Positions 1 to 32,402 of a stretch of DNA of 32,756 nucleotides are shown piece by piece. The stretch spans positions 1 to 32,756 of the forward strand of contig CAIQEI010000092.1 in assembly GCA_903870815.1 (NCBI GenBank). Reading direction: 5' to 3'. The translations under genes and the position numbers were made by a program. Source of the stretch: an uncultured Verrucomicrobia subdivision 3 bacterium (GTDB lineage Bacteria; Verrucomicrobiota; Verrucomicrobiia; Limisphaerales; UBA11358). Below the pieces are notes generated by a model, which was not told the DNA's origin, searched no databases, and saw nothing but the letters and a program-made list of their open reading frames with translations. How positions within the stretch are numbered: the first letter of the stretch is position 1; the number at the start of each line of letters is the position of its first letter.

Positions 1-200
1 CATCCACACTTTATCAGCACCAGCCTTTTGTCGCTGGTAAGTCGGCACAGTTTGTGGCAGGTCATTGGCTTTGGGTTGCGCGCCAAGGATTCGGGCGCGG
101 AGACATTCAGGCTACAGTCGAGGTTGCGATGGATGGTTCTACAAATCGTGTTGTTCTACAGTTATTGGATAGCCAAAACCCACCACCCCAAGGGTTCTAG
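1..200 (+). CDS. 3' end of a small secreted protein, paralogue of the next gene
   Basis: The frame starting at base 3 is open to a TAG at 198-200, and the gene is cut by the window edge. The visible C-terminus contains FVAGHWLWVARQGFGRGDIQ and ATVEVAMDGSTNRVVLQLLD. These align almost residue for residue with FVAGRWSWRQLGNGDIEATV and DLAADGSTNQVVLNRL of the gene at 321-614. That match shows this frame is the real one, although another frame is also open here. Function is unknown; by analogy with the paralogue it is probably a small lipoprotein. It ends about 40 bases before a hairpin element that recurs after the following genes. Confidence 0.75.
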   Translation, partial: STLYQHQPFVAGKSAQFVAGHWLWVARQGFGRGDIQATVEVAMDGSTNRVVLQLLDSQNPPPQGF

Positions 201-240
201 ATATATTTATGACGTTGCCTAATAATTACCAGGAATCCCC

Positions 241-295
241 TTGACGCTGGCAATTCCGATTTCGCGGTTCACGCCACGAATTGATGGTGGCTACT
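241..295 (+). repeat. attC-like hairpin element, copy 1
   Basis: TTCGCGG at 261-267 faces CCACGAA at 274-280 across the loop TTCACG, giving a 7-bp stem with one mismatch, followed by TGATGGTGGCT. The same core recurs at 1029-1104, 1491-1554 and 2384-2453, each time between a gene end and the next gene start. GCCTAAT at 217-223 could be a decayed integron R'' box (RYYYAAC). No convincing GTTRRRY box follows this copy. Confidence 0.6.
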
Positions 296-320
296 TTCGG
301 AGGCGGATCGCAGACACATT

Positions 321-614
321 ATGAAAACATCACGAATCATTCTTTTCGCGCTCCTGCTAGTTAGTTGCACAAGCACGCACCAGCACGCATCGCTGACCGA
401 AGATCAAGCCAAGGCAGTCGCTATACACCTGGCAAACGAGAAGGCTGCCACGGTATATCAATGCGAGCCCTTTCATGATGGACAGCCACCCAAGTTTGTG
501 GCGGGTCGCTGGTCTTGGAGACAGCTAGGCAATGGCGATATCGAGGCCACTGTCGACTTGGCAGCGGATGGTTCGACAAATCAAGTAGTCCTAAACCGAT
601 TGACAGGATTATGA
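321..614 (+). CDS. small putative lipoprotein of unknown function
   Basis: This is a 97-residue protein. The N-terminus MKTSRIILFALLLVSCTS is a lipoprotein signal, with positive residues, a hydrophobic run and a Cys at position 16 after LLVS, so a lipid anchor in an envelope membrane is expected. The mature part holds the block FVAGRWSWRQLGNGDIEATV that is shared with the truncated gene ending at 200. The stop TGA (612-614) overlaps the ATG of the next gene as ATGA, so the two are probably translationally coupled. No family was recognised. The gene lies between two copies of the attC-like hairpin, as the first gene of a two-gene cassette-like unit. Confidence 0.75.
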   Translation: MKTSRIILFALLLVSCTSTHQHASLTEDQAKAVAIHLANEKAATVYQCEPFHDGQPPKFVAGRWSWRQLGNGDIEATVDLAADGSTNQVVLNRLTGL

Positions 615-1012
615 AAACTATCGCCATTATTATTTTTGTCGCCGTTGGGTTGTTGGCTCAAGCAGCCGACAAAATGTTTGATGACGAGTTGGCTAGAAAA
701 GCAGTGGCAGTCCTTCGCGTCCGTTTGATCGACAATCCTTGGCCGTTGCCAAGGTATCCTTTCACACAGTATAGAGTGAATGTCTCCCAGGTGATCAAAA
801 ACGAGTCAGATCAGAATCTAAATCAAACCATTACGGTTTCAGCATACAAGGGCCAGGAGGGAGTGCCGGCGGAAGAATGCGCGATTTACATCGAGCGCTA
901 TAATGTAGCAAACCGGGAATTCAACAATACGAACGGGACGATTTGGATGCTTGTCGGCGGGAATGCCACCAACGGTGTCAGCCATATTGGCGGAAAGGCA
1001 GCATTGCGATGA
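611..1012 (+). CDS. small secreted protein of unknown function
   Basis: The protein has 133 residues if it starts at the ATG at 611, which overlaps the previous stop as ATGA. An upstream in-frame ATG at 515 would overlap the preceding gene by 100 bases and lacks a signal peptide directly behind it. MKTIAIIIFVAVGLLAQAAD is a clear signal peptide with likely cleavage after the Ala residues near position 19, so export is predicted. The mature part is mixed alpha/beta in appearance, with NVSQVIKNESDQNLNQTITV and a glycine-rich end (VGGNATNGVSHIGG). No family was recognised. An attC-like hairpin begins 16 bases after the stop. Confidence 0.7.
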   Translation: MKTIAIIIFVAVGLLAQAADKMFDDELARKAVAVLRVRLIDNPWPLPRYPFTQYRVNVSQVIKNESDQNLNQTITVSAYKGQEGVPAEECAIYIERYNVANREFNNTNGTIWMLVGGNATNGVSHIGGKAALR

Positions 1013-1028
1013 CGTGGAGTTTCAAGTT

Positions 1029-1104
1029 GCCACCCGCTGATGGCTCGGGGTGTCCGCTTTCGCGGTTCTCGCCACGTGTCGGCGGTGGCTCAGCTAAGTT
1101 AGGC
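1029..1104 (+). repeat. attC-like hairpin element, copy 2 (ends in GTTAGGC)
   Basis: The outer arms GCCACC (1029-1034) and GGTGGC (1084-1089) pair, and the pairing extends inward with one extra-helical C. The inner core is TCGCGG/CCACG. Eight bases after the outer arm comes GTTAGGC (1098-1104), a match to the integron R' consensus GTTRRRY. The next gene starts 16 bases later. Bulged bases, a terminal GTTRRRY and a short distance to the next ORF are properties of attC sites. The matching left box (GCCTAAC) is not visible, so this copy may be degenerate. Confidence 0.6.
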
Positions 1105-1120
1105 ATCGTTTCACACTTTA

Positions 1121-1467
1121 TGCGAATATTACATATCACTACGGCAGCTATGATGGCCGTATTTATCATCGGTTGCTCGAAGCAGCACTCGGCACACAAG
1201 CTTTCCATTACGAAAGATTTGGGTGTCGTGGAGCTTGTGGAAGGGACACCACAGCACTTCACCCTCGGAGGTCAAGGAAGCTGCACACTCACCGGCAAAC
1301 ACCTTACCGATGGCATCGAGATTGATTTCGTGATTGAGCTGACCCACCAAAACGGGGCAGTTGACACCTTGAGCAGACCCACGATTACTACCGCACCCGG
1401 CCAGCATTGCGTGGTCGAAACTGCCAATGGAAATATTGGTCTGACGCCTACATGGAAGACACCATGA
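1121..1467 (+). CDS. small putative lipoprotein of unknown function
   Basis: The protein has 115 residues from the ATG at 1121, 16 bases after the GTTAGGC box. The upstream start at 943 would run through the preceding gene and the repeat, so it was rejected. The N-terminus ITTAAMMAVFIIGCSKQHS carries a lipobox-like IIGC with Cys 19, so a lipid-anchored envelope protein is expected. The rest looks like a beta-rich domain (HFTLGGQGSCTLTGKHLTDG, IDFVIELTHQNGAVDTLSRP) with two further Cys that could form a disulfide. No family was recognised. It is the only gene between attC-like copies 2 and 3. Confidence 0.7.
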
Positions 1468-1490
1468 CGATGACAAACCGGCCGGAGCAG

Positions 1491-1554
1491 TTGGCGCTTG
1501 CCGCTCCGAAATCGCGGTTCAAGCCGCGAGTCGGCGGTGGCTGGTACGTTAAGA
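1491..1554 (+). repeat. attC-like hairpin element, copy 3
   Basis: TCGCGG (1512-1517) and CCGCGA (1524-1529) form a perfect 6-bp stem with loop TTCAAG. The flanks GCCGCTCCG and CGGCGGTGGC extend it imperfectly. GTTAAGA (1548-1554) lies 12 bases after the start of GGTGG and fits GTTRRRY except for the last base. This is the most symmetrical copy of the family. Confidence 0.6.
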
Positions 1555-1601
1555 CGCAGCGCGCGCAACTTTATCGTGAGTTGGTTGTTTGACAGGAGAG
1601 C

Positions 1602-2378
1602 ATGAAAAATCGCACCTCACTTATTATTTTAGCATCACTGACATTGGCTTTGGCTGGTTGTTCCACGTCGACTCCAAAAGTTGCGAGCAGCCGCCCACCG
1701 GATGTCACGATAGCGACGCCTCCTCAATACAAGGTTTACACTGACAGCCAGCGCGAACCCAAGGGTAGCATTACTACCTGGTCGGCGAAAAATTCCGAAG
1801 CCAGCGTGGTTTTCAACTTTCATAACGAAACGTCCGGGTCGAACTGGTTGGTAAATCTCCGGCTGGCCGATGGGTACGAAATCCAGGCCAACAAACCGGA
1901 TGAGCGTGAGCCGAAAGGCAGCCACAATCATTATTGGGATTCGGTGGGCACCAATGGCGCCTACAACCCGAACATCTACGTTTACCTCCACAATAGCATC
2001 TCAGGTTCAAACTGGATAGCTTCCATATCCGCCTATAAAACTATCACGCTTCCCTATATACTCAGGGACGTTGATACAGGAGTCACTTTTGAAGTCGAAG
2101 CGGACGGGCGGCACGTTAGTGCAACCGACATCTATGGCGCATTACTTTGGTATCGTGATCCATTTGCCGATGCGCACATGGAGTATTACCGGACGGATAA
2201 ACCGAAAATAGTCGATTTTTATATCTGTAAGCGCAAGCCGTCAGAAGACTGGACAATTGTTGAGCAGGTATTGGGCAAAAAAGGAGTCAGCGTATGGATT
2301 GCCATTCGCTATAATTCTTCTCAAGCTGGTTTTATGGACCCTGCCACCGGTGATTTCTATTTTACGGGACAATTATGA
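1602..2378 (+). CDS. putative lipoprotein with an internal duplication
   Basis: The protein has 258 residues. A good ribosome binding site, AGGAG, lies seven bases before the ATG. MKNRTSLIILASLTLALAGC is a textbook lipoprotein signal with LAGC and Cys 20. The mature protein holds two related segments. One carries SQREPKGSITTW then NFHNETSGSNWLVNL. The other carries DEREPKGSHNHYW then YLHNSISGSNWIASI. A REPKGS...SGSNW unit therefore occurs twice, about 60 residues apart. The C-terminal half (YYRTDKPKIVDFYICKRKPS and onward) looks like a globular domain. No family was recognised. It is the last gene before the fourth attC-like copy. Confidence 0.75.
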   Translation: MKNRTSLIILASLTLALAGCSTSTPKVASSRPPDVTIATPPQYKVYTDSQREPKGSITTWSAKNSEASVVFNFHNETSGSNWLVNLRLADGYEIQANKPDEREPKGSHNHYWDSVGTNGAYNPNIYVYLHNSISGSNWIASISAYKTITLPYILRDVDTGVTFEVEADGRHVSATDIYGALLWYRDPFADAHMEYYRTDKPKIVDFYICKRKPSEDWTIVEQVLGKKGVSVWIAIRYNSSQAGFMDPATGDFYFTGQL

Positions 2379-2383
2379 CCCGG

Positions 2384-2453
2384 GGCCACAGTTTGGAGTG
2401 GCAGTCCCGCAATCGCGGTTTACATCGCGAGCCGGCGGTGGAATTCTGTCTGG
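2384..2453 (+). repeat. attC-like hairpin element, copy 4
   Basis: CCAC (2386-2389) can pair with GTGG (2438-2441), and inside it TCGCG (2413-2417) pairs with CGCGA (2426-2430). The CCGGCGGTGG block of the other copies is kept. GTCTGGGC follows where copy 2 has GTTAGGC, so the presumed right box has decayed. It separates the last small lipoprotein gene from the prepilin gene. Confidence 0.5.
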
Positions 2454-2501
2454 GCGGTAATCCCAGTTGAAACAAATGTGAAACTACGGTGTCATAAAGA
2501 C

Positions 2502-3242
2502 ATGAACCTGCGCCGCGCGTTCACGCTCATCGAGCTGCTCGTGGTCATCGCCATAATCGCGATTCTGGCGGCGCTGCTGCTCCCGGCTTTGGCTGCCGCC
2601 AAGAAGAAGGCCAAAGCCGTCAATTGCCTTTCCAACCTGAAGCAGTTCGGCCTCGCGCAGAGCTTATACGCAGGCGACTTTCAAGATTGTTTCCCTCAGT
2701 CGGGCAATAATTTCTGGGTGATGCCGCTGATTGACCTGCCCAATCTGTTGCAACCCTACCTGAAAAACACCACCCCGGCCATCTTCCAGTGTCCACTCGA
2801 AACAGGGACGGCTTTCAGCGTGCTGGAGGCGCAGTGGTTCGGGCCAATGAACGGCAAATCGGCCAGCGACATCACGGTGCCGACTTCGTATTACTATTAT
2901 CTGGCGTTTTACGGCTCGCTGGCTCAGCCGAGCGGTTCGCCGCCAGTGCCCGCCTCCCCGACCCGGCATCGAACCACCGAGGTTCAATATTCATCAGGGA
3001 AAATCCTGCAAGCCTGTTATACCAGCAGCCAGGCGGGGAATCGGTTCTTCTTGAGCGATCTTCCGCCATATACGGATAATGCCCACAGCCCATCGGGTAT
3101 GAATCTGCTGCTGGTGGATGGTCATGCTCAGTTCGCCAACTACGACAATTTTAACCCCATTGAGGATCCCTATTTGACCTATACCGATGGTCACGCCTAC
3201 AATTACGACTGGTCGCCGCTGACGGATCGAAACGTGCAATAA
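2502..3242 (+). CDS. prepilin-type N-terminal cleavage/methylation protein
   Basis: The protein has 246 residues from the ATG at 2502. An upstream GTG at 2478 adds eight residues and is possible, but it would give an unusually long leader. [20 protein letters not shown] is a type IV prepilin signal that would be cut before Phe 7, with Glu 11 as the conserved pseudopilin residue. The hydrophobic helix continues with [16 protein letters not shown]. The C-terminal part holds [17 protein letters not shown], close to the H-X9-DG motif typical of the many such proteins in Verrucomicrobia and Planctomycetes, but here with ten residues between His and DG. It is probably an envelope or extracellular pseudopilin-like protein whose individual role is unknown. 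Confidence 0.9.
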
Positions 3243-3383: not shown

Positions 3384-4739
3384 ATGAAAACCTTTCTTCG
3401 GTGGTTGCTGTTTATTTTTCTGGGGTTGGGGTTGTTGGCGACGCTATTTTATGCCGAAGAAGATTGGCGCGGCTGGCACGCGTGGAACAAATGCAAACGC
3501 GAATTCAAAGCCAAAGGGACGGAGATGGATTGGAACGCCTATATTCCGCCGCCCGTGTCGGATGATGAGAATTTTTTCGAGGCACCGAAGATGGCCGATT
3601 GGTTTATCCGGGGACATCATGGCGAACAATTGCAAGATCCCTTTAAAAATCCAGACACGACCAGTGAGATTAAGACCGAATCTGCGGCGCGCAATTACCT
3701 GGCTTGGAGCGACCAGTTTCGCACGAACTTCAACTTGATTCGCGAGGCGCTCAAACGTCCTTATGCGCGAATGGGCGGGGACTATTCCAAGCTAGCTGAA
3801 CAACCGGTTCCGAACTTCGTGAGCGTTCGGATTGTTGCCCAGACGCTCGCGCAGCGTGCCAAATGTGATTTACTGCTGGGCCAGCCAGACCAGGCGTTGG
3901 AGGAATTGACGTTGATGCATGACATGTGTCGTTTGCTGGAAGCCGCGCCGACGGGCAAACCAATGATCTTAGTGTCGGCGATGATCAACGTCGCCGTCAG
4001 CAGACTTTTTGTGGACACCGTCGCGAACGGTTTCCAGATTCACGCCTGGCAGGCGCCGCAACTGGCCACATTGCAAAAACAACTCGCAGACATCAACCTG
4101 ACGCCGTTCGTGTTTGAAGCATTCAAAGACGAAGCGGCAGGTTTAAGCCGCACCGCTCAAATCGACTGGATCCCAAGCCTGTTCAATATCAATAATTCGG
4201 TGAAAGCAAAGTGGACGACCAAAATTATCTCGTGGTTCTGGCCACGCGGCTGGACCTATCAAAACATGGTTAACGTCGCCACGCTTGAACAGAAGCCGCT
4301 GGCAGGCTTTGACATCGCGGACGACACGATTGTGCCGCGCAAATGTGAAGCAGCATCCCGCGAAGTTGACCGGTTTTTAAAGCATAAATCGCCCTTCAAG
4401 CTTCTGGCCGCCATTGCCATTCCCAATTTTACCAAGGCAGAACAATCCCTGGCATTTAACCAAACCCTGGCCAACGAAGCCCAGATCGTATGTGCGCTGG
4501 AGCGTTACCGCCTTGCGTTTGGATATTATCCGGCAACCTTGGGTGCGCTGGTGCCGAGGTTCATCGAGGAACTGCCGCACGACATCATCGGCGGGGAGCC
4601 ATTGCATTATCGGCGCACGGAGGGCGGGAAGTTTCTGCTCTACTCCGTCGGCTGGAATGAAAGGGATGACGATGGCCAGCCCGGAACTCTCGCGAATGTC
4701 AAACATGGCGACTGGGTCTGGGGATATCCCAAGCCGTAA
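3384..4739 (+). CDS. membrane-anchored protein with pseudopilin-like C-terminus
   Basis: The protein has 451 residues. An N-terminal membrane helix (FLRWLLFIFLGLGLLATLFY, about residues 4-23) is followed by a large, mostly helical exported domain. A short hydrophobic stretch at about 337-345 (LLAAIAIPNF) comes before the C-terminal block YRLAFGYYPATLGALVPRFI and LLYSVGWNERDDDGQPGT. That block resembles the C-terminal part of type II secretion major pseudopilins. Related proteins are common in Verrucomicrobia genomes without an assigned role. The anchor suggests a periplasmic orientation. The gene stands alone behind a promoter-like sequence, with no visible partner besides the prepilin gene upstream. 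Confidence 0.8.
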   Translation: MKTFLRWLLFIFLGLGLLATLFYAEEDWRGWHAWNKCKREFKAKGTEMDWNAYIPPPVSDDENFFEAPKMADWFIRGHHGEQLQDPFKNPDTTSEIKTESAARNYLAWSDQFRTNFNLIREALKRPYARMGGDYSKLAEQPVPNFVSVRIVAQTLAQRAKCDLLLGQPDQALEELTLMHDMCRLLEAAPTGKPMILVSAMINVAVSRLFVDTVANGFQIHAWQAPQLATLQKQLADINLTPFVFEAFKDEAAGLSRTAQIDWIPSLFNINNSVKAKWTTKIISWFWPRGWTYQNMVNVATLEQKPLAGFDIADDTIVPRKCEAASREVDRFLKHKSPFKLLAAIAIPNFTKAEQSLAFNQTLANEAQIVCALERYRLAFGYYPATLGALVPRFIEELPHDIIGGEPLHYRRTEGGKFLLYSVGWNERDDDGQPGTLANVKHGDWVWGYPKP

Positions 4740-10912: not shown

Positions 10913-10918
10913 AAGAGG

Positions 10919-11012
10919 TGCCAGGGTGACTGCGGCAATTGCAAAGCAAACTACCGTTGCTGCCTTCCGGCCCTGGCGGGATTTGTAAGTCCACACTCCA
11001 CAGGCCCTGGCA
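10919..11012 (-). ncRNA. ffs: signal recognition particle RNA, small bacterial type
   Basis: On the minus strand, TGCCAGGG at the 5' end pairs perfectly with CCCTGGCA at the 3' end, closing a 94-base rod. The conserved domain IV hairpin is present as GCCAGGGCCGGAAGGCAGC, with the GGAA tetraloop and the AGCA side of the SRP54-binding loop. The RNA binds Ffh and targets nascent inner-membrane and exported proteins. The gene stands directly before dnaX, as the SRP RNA gene does in Bacillus subtilis. The exact ends are inferred from the pairing. Confidence 0.93.
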
Positions 11013-25250: not shown

Positions 25251-28200
25251 ATGATTACTCGCACTCCTCGGCGACTTCAGCGCCTGTTTCGCGTCCGCAC
25301 CGTCCGTTGGATTTGTCTTACCGTTTGTGGCCTCGGTCTGGCCGCCCGCCTGCCGGCCCAAACCTGGATGAACACCTCCCTGTCCGCTTCGCAGCGCGCC
25401 AGTTTGCTCGTGGCGTCGATGACCCAGGCTGAGCAGCTCGCCATGGTGAGCGGGAACCCCAATGGATACATCGGCAACCTGCCCGGGAATGGCCGGCTGG
25501 GGATTCCCTCGCTGAATTTTCAGGACGGCCCGGCCGGGGCGGGCGACGGTCATACGGGGGCGACGGCACTTCCGGCGCCGGTCTGTCTGGCGGCAACCTG
25601 GGATGTGGCCCTGGCCCGGCAATACGGCACTTGTGTCGGCCAGGAGCAGCGCGGTAAAGGAGCTCAAGTCACGCTGGGGCCGACGATGAACATGGCGCGG
25701 GCTTACCAGAACGGACGCAATTGCGAAAGCTTTGGTGAGGATCCGTATCTGGCGGCCATCATCGCGGCGACCGACATCCAGGGCATCCAGAGCCAGGGCG
25801 TCATCGCCAATTCAAAGCATCTGGCTTGTAATGACCAGGAAACCGACCGGTTCCTGATCAGCGCCGATGTGGACGAGCGAACCCGCCAGGAAATCTATTA
25901 TCCGCCCTTCCGCGCCTGCGTCCAGTCCGGCCTCGGTTCATTCATGGCTTCCTACAACCGCATCAACGGCCTGCATGCCTCCGAACATCCGTTTCTCAAT
26001 GCCACGGTGAAAAAACTCTGGGGCTTCGACGGGTTCATTGAAAGTGACTGGGCGGCGTATTTGGGCACGGTCACGGCGGCGGACAACGGTTTGGACATTG
26101 ACATGTATAACGGCGCTTTTAGTGGCACGCCGCTGGGCAACGCCATCGGGGCCGGCCTTGTCCCCGGCGCCGAACTCAGCGACAAGGTGCATCGCATCCT
26201 GACGTCGATGTTTCAAAATGGCGACTTTGATAATCCTTCCACCGGCAACATCAATGCGACCGTGACCACCACGGCCAACCAGGTGGTCTCCCGCAATTGC
26301 GCGGCGGCGGGCACCGTCCTGCTCCAGAACAACCACTCCGTCCTCCCGTTGAAGACGAATTTGGTTCATTCCATCGCGGTGATCGGCTCGGTCGCCAACG
26401 CGTCGGCCATCTACACCGCATTGGGTTCCAGCGGCGTGGAATTGGTTTATAGCGTCACCCCCTTGACTGGAATCTCCAGTCGGGCCGGCGGAGCCGTCAC
26501 TGTGAATTATTCACAGGGTGATGGCGGAAACATTCCGGCGGCGGTGGCGCTCGCCCAGTCTTCCAGCGTCGCAATCATTTGTGTGGGCCAGCGGACGGGT
26601 GAGGGGGCGGATCGCACCAGCCTCTCGCTGCCCGGCGACCAGGACGCGCTGATCAGCGCGGTGGCCGCCGTCAACACCAACACCATCGTGGTGGTCTATT
26701 GTTCGTCGTCCACCCTAATGCCTTGGTCCACTAACATCGCCGCCTCGCTCGTGGCCTGGTTTCCGGGACTGGAAAACGGCAACGCCCTCGCCCAGGTGTT
26801 GTTTGGCGACGTGAACCCTTCCGGCCGTTTGCCGGTCACCATTCCCGCCACGGCCAGTCAGGTGCCGGCAAACACCACCGCGCAATTTCCGGGAATCAAC
26901 GGCCATGTCACCTATTCCGAAGGCTTGAACATGGGCTATCGTTGGTATGACGCCAGTAATGTCCCGCCGCAATTTCCCTTCGGCCACGGGCTGTCCTACA
27001 CGACCTTCGGTTACAGCAATCTCGTGGTCGGCGCGGTCAGCCCCTCCGGCCAGGTGCAGATCGGCTTCGACCTGAAGAACACCGGTTCGCTCACCGGCGC
27101 GGAAGTGTCGCAGCTTTACCTCGGTTTTCCCGCCGCCGCCGGTGAGCCGCCGAAACTGCTGAAAGGATTCACCAAAGTCCCCCTCGCTCCGGGCCAGACG
27201 CAGCATGTGACCTTCAACCTGGACTGGCAGGATCTGGCGAATTGGGATGCCACCGCCCGCGGCTGGCTGGTGACGCCGGGGACGTTTCAGGTTTATGTCG
27301 GCGCCTCGTCCCGCGACTTGCGGTTGACAAATTCGTTTTCCGTCACTTCCGTTCCATCGAGCGACCTGGCCAACGCGGCGCTGCATCAAATCGCCACGGC
27401 TTCTTCCGGCACCAACTTTGGCGCACCCGTGGTCGCGCCGGTGTACGGCGCCAATTTTGGTGCGATGGTGGATGGCAACCCCGCCACCGGCTGGAGATCC
27501 GCGGTGAGCGATCCGCAATGGTGCATGGTGGATCTCGGCCTCATTAAGGATTTGTCGCGCGTCCGCCTGCAATGGAACACCAATTACGCCTCGGCCTTCT
27601 CGATTCAACTTTCCACCAATGCGTCAACCTGGACGACAATTTTCACCACCAACGGCGATCAGGGTGGGGTGGAAGACATTTTGGTTTCCGGCCAGGGCCG
27701 CTACGTGCGGATGCTGGGCGCAACTCAAGGCCTGCCCGGCGCTGGCTATGGAATTCAGGAGTTTGAGGTGTATTCGCCACAGCAGGCGCCCTATGGCGGT
27801 TCGGTTCCCGTCCTCCCGGCCCAGGTGGAGGCGGAAAATTTTGACAACGGCGGCGAGGGCGTGGGTTACTACAACACCACGGTGGGAAACGCCGGCGGGG
27901 TTTATCGGACGAATGTGGATGTCGGCATTGAACCCTGCACGGACACCGGCGGCGGCTATGATGTCGGCTATGTCCAACCCGGCGAGTGGCTGGAATACAC
28001 GGTGAACGCGCCCGACCCCGAGGCGGTTTACAGCGTCAACGTCCGGGTGGCCTCGGGCAGCGGCGGCGGCCAGTTGCGGGTGCGCCTGGACGGCACACTG
28101 CTGGGCACGGTGAACATTCCCAACACGGGCGGCTGGCAAACTTGGCAGACGATCACACTGCCGAATGTGCCGATTGCCGGCGGCACGGGCAGCCGGGCCT

Positions 28201-31200
28201 TGCGCGTGGAAGTGATCAATGGCGGCTTTAATTTCAACTGGATTCAACTGAACCAGGTGCAGATTTGCAGCACCACCAATATCACGCTCAAGCAGCCGGC
28301 TTGGTCGTCCTCCGGCGGTTCGGCATCGCCGGCGTTTGATGGTGATTGCCGGTCATACTGGTCATCGTCGGCCAGCGACCCGCAATGGCTGGTCGTGGAT
28401 CTGGGGGCTATTGTAAATGTTGCGCGCATCCGGCTCGACTGGGTCACGCAAAACTGGAACAACAATGGCTATGGCCAAGCGGAGTTCAGCCAGAGCTTTA
28501 GTCTGCAGTTTTCGTCGGATGGTAACAGTTGGACCAATGCTTATTCCACCACGAATGGATTCGGCAGCCTTAACGACTTGGCCGTGGCGGGCAACGCGCG
28601 CTACGTGCGCCTGTATTCCACCCAGCGGATCAATGGCCTTGGCATCGGCCTTTATGAATTCGAGGTTTATCCGGGTTCGCCCGTGCAGACTTTCCCCAAT
28701 ACCTCCACCAATGGGGTTGCCAATCCTTCCTTCGAGGCCCAGGTTGTGACGGACGGAAGCTTTATAAGCGGCGATCCGTTGTTTTGGCATTCGGCGCTTT
28801 TTGGTGGAGCCGTTGATGCCGTCATCAACCCCGGCGTTTCCGATGGCCGTGGTTTTGGAAGCACCCCGGTCGGTCTGGATGGCACCAATATTTGCCAGAT
28901 TTTCGCGGGTACTTCTGGCGGCGGCGGCATGGTTTATCAGGACTCGGGCATTAAGTTTCAGGCGGGTACGACCTACCAGTTGACGGCGGCGTTCGGCCTG
29001 CAAACCAGCCAGACTTTTGATGCCGGCAGCACCATGGGGCTTTACAATTCTTCGCTCACCGCCGTTACCAACAAAACCATCAGCCCGGCCAATCTCATTG
29101 CCGGCGCGTTCACCAACCAAAATCTGCTCTACACTGCCACGGGCACCGAAGGTGGCAACGGCGACATCATTGTCGGCTTTTATGCGCCACCCGCGGCCTC
29201 GGTCAATTCCTATTTTGACTTCGATAACGTCCAGTTGGCCGTGTTCACTACCAACACCTTGATCATTATCATTCCGCCGGTTTCGCAAATGACCATTGCC
29301 GGGAACACCGCCTCGTTCAGTGTAGTTGCCGCCGGGGCGGCGCCCTTCAGTTACCAATGGCAGGCGACGAATAGTGCCGCTGGCGGCTTCACCAATCTGG
29401 TGAACGGCGGCCAGGTTTCGGGCGCAACCAGCAACATCCTGACCATCGCCAACGCGTCCACCAACTGGACTCTGGCCTACCAGGTGATTGTGACCAACAG
29501 TGTCGGGTCGGTCACGAGTGCGCCGCCGGTCACCCTCACCGTGGTCACCAGCCCCGTGATCACGAGCGGGCCGGTCTCCCAATCGGCGCTCGCCGGCAGC
29601 CCGGTTTCATTCAGCGTATCTGCCTTGGGGGTGGCACTGGTGAGCTACCAATGGCAGACCAACGGCGGAAGCGGATGGGGTAATTTGGTGAATGGCGGCA
29701 TCATCACGGGTGCCACTAGCAACGTTTTGAGCTTCGCCAGTGTGACTACCAATTGGGCGCTTTCGTATCAGGTGATTGTGTCCAATAGCTACGGCTCCGT
29801 CACCAGTACGCCGGCGGCCACCCTGACGGTCGTATCCATTCCAGTTATCACCACCCAGCCTGTTTCGCAAACGGTGCTCCCGGGCCAGACGGTTTCTTTG
29901 AGTGCCGCCGCCATCGGGCCGGCACCTTTGAGCTATCAATGGCAGGCCCAGCCTCTCGGCGGCGGAACCTTCACCAACCTGGTGAACGGCGGCAGTATCT
30001 CGGGAGCTGCCAGCAATGTTTTGACATTCGCCAATGTGACCACCAATTGGAACCTGTCCTACCAGTTAATTGTGGCTAACAGTTACGGCTCCGTGACCAG
30101 TTCGGTGGTTTTCCTGTCGGTGTTGACCTCCACCGTGCTGATTGACGGCGACTTTGGCTCCGGCGCGACCCAGTCCGGCGCGGCGGTATTGGGTTCAGCG
30201 GGTGATGCTTGGAACGCGATCACCGTCTCGACCGGTACCTTGCGCAATTCCGCGGGCACCACCGTGAGTGGGGTGGGGCTCACCTTGTCCGACCAGGGCG
30301 TCTTCACCGATGCCAGTGGTGACGCCATGGATTCCGGCACTTCCGCGTTGATGCAGGATTATGCCTATGGCAACACCACTCCGGCCACGGTCACGGTGAC
30401 TTTCACCGGGTTATCGAAGTACACAAATAGTCTCTTTGCCTTGGTGGTTTATGCAGCGGGGGACGCGGCCGGCCAGGGCGGGAGCCTGACCTTGACGGGA
30501 GGTACAGGAGGCAACACGGCCACAACTCTGACCACCACCGCCGCCTCGCGGCAGGTTTCCGCAGGGCCTGGTGTGGCCTACAATACCTTCTCGGGCACTC
30601 TGGCCAGCGGCACGCTGACCCTGGTTGTCAGCGCCAATGGGTCGGTTTATAGCATTGTGAACGGATTCCAGCTTCTGTTGTCCGGGCAGCTGCCCCCGGT
30701 CATCACGACCGAGCCCGTTTCACAAACCAACAACGTTGGCAGCGCAGTCTCTTTCAACGTAATCGCGACGGGGGCTACCCCGTTGGGCTACCAATGGCAG
30801 GCGCGACCGGTGGCTGGGGGCACCTTTACCAATGTGGTGAATGGTGGCCCGGTTTCTGGTGTGACCAGTAATATTTTGTCGTTCGCCAACGTGACCACCA
30901 ACTGGGCGCTGGCCTATCAGGTGATTGTGACCAATAGCGTGGGCTCCGTCACCAGCTCGCCGGTGGCTACGCTGACATTGTTGGACTCCCCGGTCATCAC
31001 GACCCAGCCCGTCTCGCAAACAAACAGTGTTGGCAGCGCAGTCGCCTTCAATGTGGTTGCGTTGGGAGCCTCCCCGTTGACCTACCAGTGGCAGGCACGG
31101 TCGGTGGGTGGCGGGACGTTCACCAATCTGGTGAATGGCGTCCCTGTATCCGGTGCTACTAGCAACGTCCTGACCCTCTCTCAAGTGGCCACGAATTGGA

Positions 31201-32402
31201 CGCTGGCTTATCAGGTGATCGTGACTAACCGCTATGGTGCTGTCACCAGTTCGCCGGCAGCCACCTTGACGGTGGCGCCGGTCTCAAATTTGCTGAGCAA
31301 TTCTATCGCCATCCAGAATTTTTCCTTTGAGGCCCAAACGGTTGCGTCGAACAACTTTGTCGTCGAAAATCCGACGAGTTGGACGGTGGCCAACCAGTCG
31401 GGTGGAGCGTTGGTTGCCATTGTCCATCCCGGCGCAGGTGATGGCAGATTTGGCCTTGGCAATATTCCTGCGGGCTTTGACGGCAGCAATTATTGCCAAC
31501 TTTATATGAACGGCTCCAGTGGCTCAGTCACAGTCTATCAGGATACTGGCATCAAATATCAGGCGGGGTCGACCTACACTTTGACCGCGGCGTTTGGATT
31601 GGAGAAGAAAGGTTTTCCCACCGGCGCCCTGGTATTGTACAACTCGTCACTGGTGGCCATCGCCTCCAACGTGATCACCTCGGCGATGCTCACAGCCAAT
31701 GCTTTCACGAGCTTCAGCGTGATCTACACCGGCACCGGCACCGAGGGTGGCAACGGTGACATCGTGGTCGGGTTTAATACCACGAATGCGGCGGCGAGCA
31801 GTTCCTTTGACATTGATAATCTGCGGTTGGTGGCGGTCTCGACCCCGCCGGTCAGCAGCAATGCGTATTTGACATCTTTGATGTTGAGTCCGGCTGGGAT
31901 ATTGTCCCCGGCATTTGTTTCCAACACGTTTACCTATTATGCGACCAACGCCTACGGTAGCGCGCCGACGGTGACGGTGACCAACGCCGATCTGACCGCA
32001 ACCAACCAGTTGATCTACAATGGGACGACCAACGGGCTGAGCTCGGGGTCAACCAGTGGGGGGGTGGCGCTGACCTTGGGCGCAACCAACGTGGTGCAGG
32101 TGCAGGTGACGGCCCAGGACGGCGTCACGGTGCAAACTTACACGGTGAACGTGACGGAGTTGCCGAACCAGGCGACCCCGCCCCTGCTGACGAACAGCGT
32201 GAACGGCGGGACGTTGAACCTGACTTGGGGGCTGGATCGTCTGGGCTACCGGCTGCTGATGCAGACGAGCAACCTGAACCTGGGTGTAAGCGGGAGCGCG
32301 AATGATTGGACGATGGTCCCCGGTTCAACCACGACCAATGCCGCCGCCATCTCCATCGTCACCACCAACCTCAATGAATATTTCCGGCTGGTGTACCCTT
32401 AA
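25251..32402 (+). CDS. giant secreted GH3 glycosidase with CBM and Ig-like modules
   Basis: The protein has 2383 residues. The signal peptide ends near LPAQ (36-37). The GH3 barrel (about 40-330) has KHLACNDQE (Lys 189, His 190) and nucleophile Asp 266 in GFIESDWAA. The GH3 C-terminal domain (341-590) has GEGADR with Glu 451 as likely acid/base and PFGHGLSYT, followed by an Fn3-like domain to 700. Then come an F5/8 (CBM32-like) domain 710-842, a CBM6-like domain 853-1003 and a second F5/8 domain 1009-1140. After these are an NPSFEAQ lectin-like domain 1154-1332, three Ig-like repeats 1337-1625, a GAAVLGSAGDAWN module 1627-1813 and two more Ig-like repeats to 2010. It ends with a second lectin-like domain 2014-2197, a cadherin-like domain 2204-2305 and a C-terminal domain shared with the SBBP protein. 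A beta-glucosidase or similar exo-activity outside the cell is likely; the substrate is unknown. Confidence 0.92.
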   Translation: MITRTPRRLQRLFRVRTVRWICLTVCGLGLAARLPAQTWMNTSLSASQRASLLVASMTQAEQLAMVSGNPNGYIGNLPGNGRLGIPSLNFQDGPAGAGDGHTGATALPAPVCLAATWDVALARQYGTCVGQEQRGKGAQVTLGPTMNMARAYQNGRNCESFGEDPYLAAIIAATDIQGIQSQGVIANSKHLACNDQETDRFLISADVDERTRQEIYYPPFRACVQSGLGSFMASYNRINGLHASEHPFLNATVKKLWGFDGFIESDWAAYLGTVTAADNGLDIDMYNGAFSGTPLGNAIGAGLVPGAELSDKVHRILTSMFQNGDFDNPSTGNINATVTTTANQVVSRNCAAAGTVLLQNNHSVLPLKTNLVHSIAVIGSVANASAIYTALGSSGVELVYSVTPLTGISSRAGGAVTVNYSQGDGGNIPAAVALAQSSSVAIICVGQRTGEGADRTSLSLPGDQDALISAVAAVNTNTIVVVYCSSSTLMPWSTNIAASLVAWFPGLENGNALAQVLFGDVNPSGRLPVTIPATASQVPANTTAQFPGINGHVTYSEGLNMGYRWYDASNVPPQFPFGHGLSYTTFGYSNLVVGAVSPSGQVQIGFDLKNTGSLTGAEVSQLYLGFPAAAGEPPKLLKGFTKVPLAPGQTQHVTFNLDWQDLANWDATARGWLVTPGTFQVYVGASSRDLRLTNSFSVTSVPSSDLANAALHQIATASSGTNFGAPVVAPVYGANFGAMVDGNPATGWRSAVSDPQWCMVDLGLIKDLSRVRLQWNTNYASAFSIQLSTNASTWTTIFTTNGDQGGVEDILVSGQGRYVRMLGATQGLPGAGYGIQEFEVYSPQQAPYGGSVPVLPAQVEAENFDNGGEGVGYYNTTVGNAGGVYRTNVDVGIEPCTDTGGGYDVGYVQPGEWLEYTVNAPDPEAVYSVNVRVASGSGGGQLRVRLDGTLLGTVNIPNTGGWQTWQTITLPNVPIAGGTGSRALRVEVINGGFNFNWIQLNQVQICSTTNITLKQPAWSSSGGSASPAFDGDCRSYWSSSASDPQWLVVDLGAIVNVARIRLDWVTQNWNNNGYGQAEFSQSFSLQFSSDGNSWTNAYSTTNGFGSLNDLAVAGNARYVRLYSTQRINGLGIGLYEFEVYPGSPVQTFPNTSTNGVANPSFEAQVVTDGSFISGDPLFWHSALFGGAVDAVINPGVSDGRGFGSTPVGLDGTNICQIFAGTSGGGGMVYQDSGIKFQAGTTYQLTAAFGLQTSQTFDAGSTMGLYNSSLTAVTNKTISPANLIAGAFTNQNLLYTATGTEGGNGDIIVGFYAPPAASVNSYFDFDNVQLAVFTTNTLIIIIPPVSQMTIAGNTASFSVVAAGAAPFSYQWQATNSAAGGFTNLVNGGQVSGATSNILTIANASTNWTLAYQVIVTNSVGSVTSAPPVTLTVVTSPVITSGPVSQSALAGSPVSFSVSALGVALVSYQWQTNGGSGWGNLVNGGIITGATSNVLSFASVTTNWALSYQVIVSNSYGSVTSTPAATLTVVSIPVITTQPVSQTVLPGQTVSLSAAAIGPAPLSYQWQAQPLGGGTFTNLVNGGSISGAASNVLTFANVTTNWNLSYQLIVANSYGSVTSSVVFLSVLTSTVLIDGDFGSGATQSGAAVLGSAGDAWNAITVSTGTLRNSAGTTVSGVGLTLSDQGVFTDASGDAMDSGTSALMQDYAYGNTTPATVTVTFTGLSKYTNSLFALVVYAAGDAAGQGGSLTLTGGTGGNTATTLTTTAASRQVSAGPGVAYNTFSGTLASGTLTLVVSANGSVYSIVNGFQLLLSGQLPPVITTEPVSQTNNVGSAVSFNVIATGATPLGYQWQARPVAGGTFTNVVNGGPVSGVTSNILSFANVTTNWALAYQVIVTNSVGSVTSSPVATLTLLDSPVITTQPVSQTNSVGSAVAFNVVALGASPLTYQWQARSVGGGTFTNLVNGVPVSGATSNVLTLSQVATNWTLAYQVIVTNRYGAVTSSPAATLTVAPVSNLLSNSIAIQNFSFEAQTVASNNFVVENPTSWTVANQSGGALVAIVHPGAGDGRFGLGNIPAGFDGSNYCQLYMNGSSGSVTVYQDTGIKYQAGSTYTLTAAFGLEKKGFPTGALVLYNSSLVAIASNVITSAMLTANAFTSFSVIYTGTGTEGGNGDIVVGFNTTNAAASSSFDIDNLRLVAVSTPPVSSNAYLTSLMLSPAGILSPAFVSNTFTYYATNAYGSAPTVTVTNADLTATNQLIYNGTTNGLSSGSTSGGVALTLGATNVVQVQVTAQDGVTVQTYTVNVTELPNQATPPLLTNSVNGGTLNLTWGLDRLGYRLLMQTSNLNLGVSGSANDWTMVPGSTTTNAAAISIVTTNLNEYFRLVYP

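Follow-up and report, generated by a model that had tools for sequence, protein, structure and literature searches.

The window, that is, the whole 32,756-nucleotide stretch of DNA analyzed here, is contig C92 of a 3.17-Mb draft genome (176 contigs, 96% complete) from an uncultured bacterium in Verrucomicrobia subdivision 3 (Limisphaerales/Pedosphaera group), and its base 1 is base 1 of that contig. Its left end is occupied by small genes and related noncoding elements that alternate on the plus strand. The contig opens inside a truncated gene (positions 1 to 200), of which the 3' part with 65 codons is visible and whose product is 56% identical to that of the next gene and 58 to 71% identical to homologues in three related genomes (G045, G024, and G025). 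After the first element (217 to 304) follow a gene for a 97-amino-acid (aa) predicted lipoprotein with the lipobox LVSC (321 to 614) and, with its start overlapping the stop of the former (ATGA), a gene for a 133-aa protein with an apparent signal peptide (611 to 1012). Element 2 (1012 to 1109) is followed by a gene for a 115-aa predicted lipoprotein (lipobox IIGC; 1120 to 1467), element 3 (1487 to 1554) by one for a 258-aa predicted lipoprotein (lipobox LAGC; 1602 to 2378), and element 4 (2386 to 2453) ends the series. The next gene on the same strand (2502 to 3242) encodes a prepilin-type N-methylation/DUF1559-like protein (Pfam N_methyl, PF07963, above cut-off) and presumably is not part of a cassette; no attC site was detected after it by the model described below in the rest of the 32.7-kb window. 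A first-pass annotation, made from the letters and an open reading frame (ORF) list, had noted that these small genes carry signal or lipobox sequences and lack recognizable families, and indeed none of the cassette proteins matched a Pfam family. As read from the sequence, a cassette comprises an attC site and either a single small gene or a pair of them, most of which encode predicted lipoproteins here.

Farther to the right, the window contains a gene for a 451-aa protein without a Pfam family (3384 to 4739), whose relatives were found in 55 of 59 related genomes, frequently as several copies in one genome. It proved unusable as a marker of the empty site, since its orthologue belongs to a multicopy family. 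A small SRP RNA above the Rfam gathering score lies at 10916 to 11012 on the minus strand, and a single ORF of 2,383 aa (25251 to 32402) apparently encodes a secreted, family 3-like glycoside hydrolase with predicted carbohydrate-binding and immunoglobulin-like repeats.

The first-pass annotation had placed four related hairpins at the boundaries between successive small gene units, with all genes on one strand. Both the positions and the mutual relatedness (repeat families D1/D2 and alignment) held up, with the extents redrawn, from the model and the boxes, to those given above. Conservation is concentrated in the core and the 3' arm. Twelve copies of the 29-base core TCGCGGTTNNNNNNRCGANNYGRYGGTGG were found in the own genome at no more than 2 mismatches (0 for the pattern read backwards), and the further copies of the element likewise lie between small same-strand genes. 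Intact copies in related genomes have the form GCCTAACAAGTCGCCGGAGCC...CGGCGGTGGCTCAGCTTTTTTCGTTAGGC and measure 99 nucleotides (nt), with end boxes that fit GTTRRRY/RYYYAAC perfectly. Within the window, the near-fit left box GCCTAAT (217 to 223; R''-like) of element 1 precedes a core at 262 to 290 and an R'-like CGGAGGC at 298 to 304. Element 2 has lost its left box and, alone among the window sites, has kept a perfect right box, the GTTAGGC already pointed out in the first pass (1098 to 1104; core, 1060 to 1088); the GTTAAGA reported for element 3 was likewise read from the sequence at 1548 to 1554 (core, 1512 to 1540), and the right box of element 4 has decayed to CTGGGC (core, 2413 to 2441). 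Outer boxes are thus poor in three of the four sites. The term "hairpin" is apt for the intact relatives but not for the window copies, whose single-strand folds were no better than those of dinucleotide shuffles (z of +0.8 to −1.6). An attC site consists of an R helix, a spacer, an L helix with a bulged (extrahelical) base, and a terminal part. The bottom strand of an intact site of a congener (G034) folded in this way, its terminal R helix separated by unpaired spacer bases from an L helix in which a single base bulges out, followed by a terminal loop. RNAalifold run on the own-genome copies returned a weak 9-pair structure because these sites are decayed, and an Rfam search yielded nothing relevant for the elements.

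For detection we used a clade-specific attC covariance model built here (R1) instead of the IntegronFinder default model; it was derived from 13 intact sites of other genomes, none of them from the own genome. Throughout the 32.7 kb, R1 matched exactly the four elements and nothing else (E values of 3e-10 to 4e-6): element 1 at 27.4 bits (E, 1.3e-6), element 2 at 38.1 bits (E, 3.2e-10), element 3 over 1487 to 1535 at 34.5 bits (E, 5.1e-9), and element 4 over 2386 to 2438 at 26.1 bits (E, 3.6e-6). Over 90 sites of relatives, the attC helices retained 88.5% standard pairs, and two-sided changes occurred in 21 of 24 pairs, with 124 such cells versus 27 expected from shuffles; the alignment had been fitted to the model and hence leans somewhat toward the expected structure. 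The covariation signal was gone when partners were slid by 1 to 3 columns.

An integron integrase above the TIGR02249 cut-off was present in 19 of 59 genomes (the own genome and 58 relatives), the own genome not being among them. In three congeners (G026, G034, and G001), an intI gene scoring 390 to 441 bits, above that cut-off, is oriented divergently from a plus-strand array whose beginning is marked by an attI-like TACTGTTAG. Past this motif, at a distance of about 1 kb from intI, lies the element, as the end of the first cassette in G026 and G001 and of the second in G034; its core equals the window core at 0 mismatches. The intI-linked element is 99 nt long and runs GCCTAAC...GTTAGGC in two of the three; in G001 the right box itself is damaged (GTTGATATGGC). 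Since the same element occupies the attC position beside an intact intI in three congeners, we identify it as attC: the window sites are homologous to attC sites that lie beside an integron integrase gene and, judged by this homology, are attC sites of a chromosomal integron.

The gene content of the array also behaves like that of cassettes. It is patchy among the relatives rather than fixed, with homologues of the 97-aa gene in 4 of 58 and a partial homologue of the 258-aa gene in 1 of 58. One homologue of the 97-aa gene is found in a genome of another family (G045, contig C128), where it lies between an attC site ending in GTTAGGC and one running from GCCTAAG to GTTAGAC (90 and 47 bits). 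Gene plus site therefore moves as a unit and occurs in different arrays. Across the own and related genomes, 48 genes directly downstream of attC sites had a median length of 110 aa and a median distance between site and start codon of 13.5 nt; a simple lipobox pattern was present in 10 and a strongly hydrophobic stretch in 37. These figures come from a crude script that used no background set. Integron cassettes commonly encode secreted and membrane proteins (PMC9668308).

The own genome as a whole has about 25 attC matches on at least 15 contigs, many of them single sites or short runs. Further arrays lie on C112 (five small genes and four elements up to the contig end), C145 (with the good right boxes GTTAGAC and GTTAGGT), C109, and C82, and those on C112, C145, C109, and C103 are broken at contig ends. 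The array at the start of C145 also includes another attC subtype (944 to 1432), whose core differs (CATCACCGGCTGACACTTTGAAGTCCGCGGGCGCGGGCGGCATCACAGGC...GTGGCTCAGTAT). On C121 (6990 to 11170), about ten small same-strand genes are separated by spacers that mostly were not matched by the attC model, and another element (CATGCCTGCCATG.TTAA) recurs there. The window sites score 26 to 38 bits, the best own-genome site scores 65, and the intact sites of relatives score 100 to 128. No intact intI was detected in the own genome with the TIGR02249 profile, only Xer-like recombinases and weak relics. None of four own-genome tyrosine recombinases reached the cut-off: those on C66 and C94 matched only in parts, as would any Xer-like recombinase, and that on C86 is split over two frames with a weak IntI match. 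One IntI-like piece lies on C85 (37599 to 37808; 40% identity, three stops, E of 0.0014). Another on C82 (7075 to 7185; 35% identity, E of 0.14) is divergent and situated just before the small-gene array, and it is mainly this position that suggests a relic. With low scores, lost outer boxes, and an assembly without an intact intI, the "decayed remnant" that the first pass had considered is borne out.

The array probably continues upstream on contig C168, which ends 34 codons into a homologue of the truncated first gene. Because this end aligns to the missing start of the gene, with about 21 nt absent between it and base 1 of the window in the alignment to the G045 homologue, C168 and C92 are probably adjacent, and the first 34 codons of the truncated gene itself probably stand at the end of C168. 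The contig holds an additional gene for a small lipoprotein, accompanied by a degenerate site that was read by eye and is unscored by the attC model, and farther upstream ordinary genes, including a sigma-factor-like gene. No intI was found on C168, nor, consistent with the first-pass annotation, was any integrase found in the window.

Taken together, bases 1 to 2453 are almost certainly the right-hand end of a decayed cluster of attC sites lacking an integron integrase (CALIN), made up of small-gene cassettes and drifted attC sites. There are four model matches within 2.2 kb, compared with the at least two attC sites less than 4 kb apart and without a neighboring intI that define a CALIN. Direct support comes from the homology of the sites to intI-linked attC, their cassette position, the covariation in relatives, the gene-plus-attC unit in another family, and the lack of an intact intI in the assembly. 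None of the three findings that the first pass had named as refuting a CALIN was made: an attC model did match the elements, the elements of relatives occupy cassette positions, and the gene content varies among relatives. Weighing against the reading are the poor outer boxes of three sites, the lack of a significant fold in the window copies, and the reliance on an attC model built here. We infer a history in which an integron integrase would have recognized attC by its folded bottom strand and linked cassettes together through attC × attI or attC × attC recombination, and in which the cassettes would have been expressed. The integrase gene may then have been lost, or an integrase active at another place may have inserted the cassettes here; later, the attC sites would have drifted until most outer boxes no longer paired, probably leaving the cassettes frozen.

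The second of these routes, in which the cassettes never lay beside intI at this locus and reached it, as a secondary site, through an integrase encoded elsewhere or belonging to an earlier host, is a real if tentative possibility. The scatter of sites over many contigs, often singly or in short runs, fits it, as does the lack of an intI match in the right flank and in the probable left flank on C168, and CALINs have been described as arising, among other ways, by off-target insertion (PMC8618304). However, the weak intI-like relic on C82 favors loss of intI for at least the array on that contig. That the window instead belongs to a complete, active integron, with intI and attI upstream of base 1 in unassembled sequence, is improbable. 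The contig does start inside a cassette, other own-genome arrays also end at contig ends, and CALIN counts are inflated in draft assemblies (PMC9024848), but on the probable upstream contig a single additional cassette gene gives way to ordinary genes, the window sites are degenerate, and the assembly yielded no TIGR02249 match above the cut-off and hence no intact intI with an attI. Given its 96% completeness, its 176 contigs, and the arrays broken at contig ends, an intact intI could be absent from the assembly though present in the organism. The other reading offered by the first pass, a genome-specific palindromic spacer repeat, here taken to include a MITE-like spacer unrelated to integrons, might have explained the scattered copies and the weak outer boxes of the window copies but is already contradicted, and left with hardly any probability, by the element at the attC position beside intI in three congeners, the GCCTAAC/GTTAGGC boxes, the attC-type covariation, and the same-strand gene before each element.

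The exact core with a 3' CT occurred in 58 stretches of a species-level genome collection, most of them assigned to uncultured Verrucomicrobia subdivision 3; a few exact core matches were in Spartobacteria and in bins otherwise labeled, the latter of which may be misbinned. No match to this attC type was found among 72,556 plasmids. The core is also present without mismatch on nine IMG/VR viral contigs, which may represent either misassigned chromosomal arrays or real phage-borne cassettes. Another copy lies at 4259 to 4289 of a stretch on a contig binned as Candidatus Micrarchaeota (CAIXYX010000139.1), a placement that is probably a binning error; archaeal integrons are on record (PMC9668308). 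For Verrucomicrobia subdivision 3 as a whole, it is plausible, if somewhat short of probable, that one attC type spans several families with a shared pool of small lipoprotein and membrane-protein cassettes, from which integrase-less genomes are supplied via integrase-bearing relatives. Our results add an integrase-linked, well-defined attC family for this group, which is known mostly from draft metagenome assemblies, and show unannotated small-gene arrays of its genomes to be integron cassettes. The clade-specific model can be used to recover the cassette pool, and the gradation between perfect sites adjacent to intI and degraded sites in genomes that lack it offers a stepwise view of integron loss.

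Earlier work has described integrons of Verrucomicrobiota, CALINs, and cassettes for secreted proteins, while this clade is little described for such elements; in open-access papers we found no description of the present attC type or its cassettes. CALINs are clusters of attC sites that lack an integron integrase, as defined for IntegronFinder (PMC9024848), and intI loss, off-target insertion, and rearrangement have been proposed as their origins (PMC8618304, PMC9024848); arrays are also split at contig ends in draft assemblies (PMC9024848). The window array resembles CALINs (PMC9024848) in having several attC sites within 4 kb, in one orientation and with no intI nearby. Unlike in a typical CALIN, its sites are degenerate and were recognized by a clade-specific model. 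The three intI-bearing congeners resemble sedentary chromosomal integrons (PMC8618304), with a divergent intI, an attI-like site, cassettes of unknown function, and near-identical attC sites within the clade. The own genome differs in that its arrays are short and dispersed and that it lacks an intact intI, and a further difference is the clade, Verrucomicrobia subdivision 3. Verrucomicrobiota are already listed as integron carriers (PMC8618304), and the window array comes from that same phylum.
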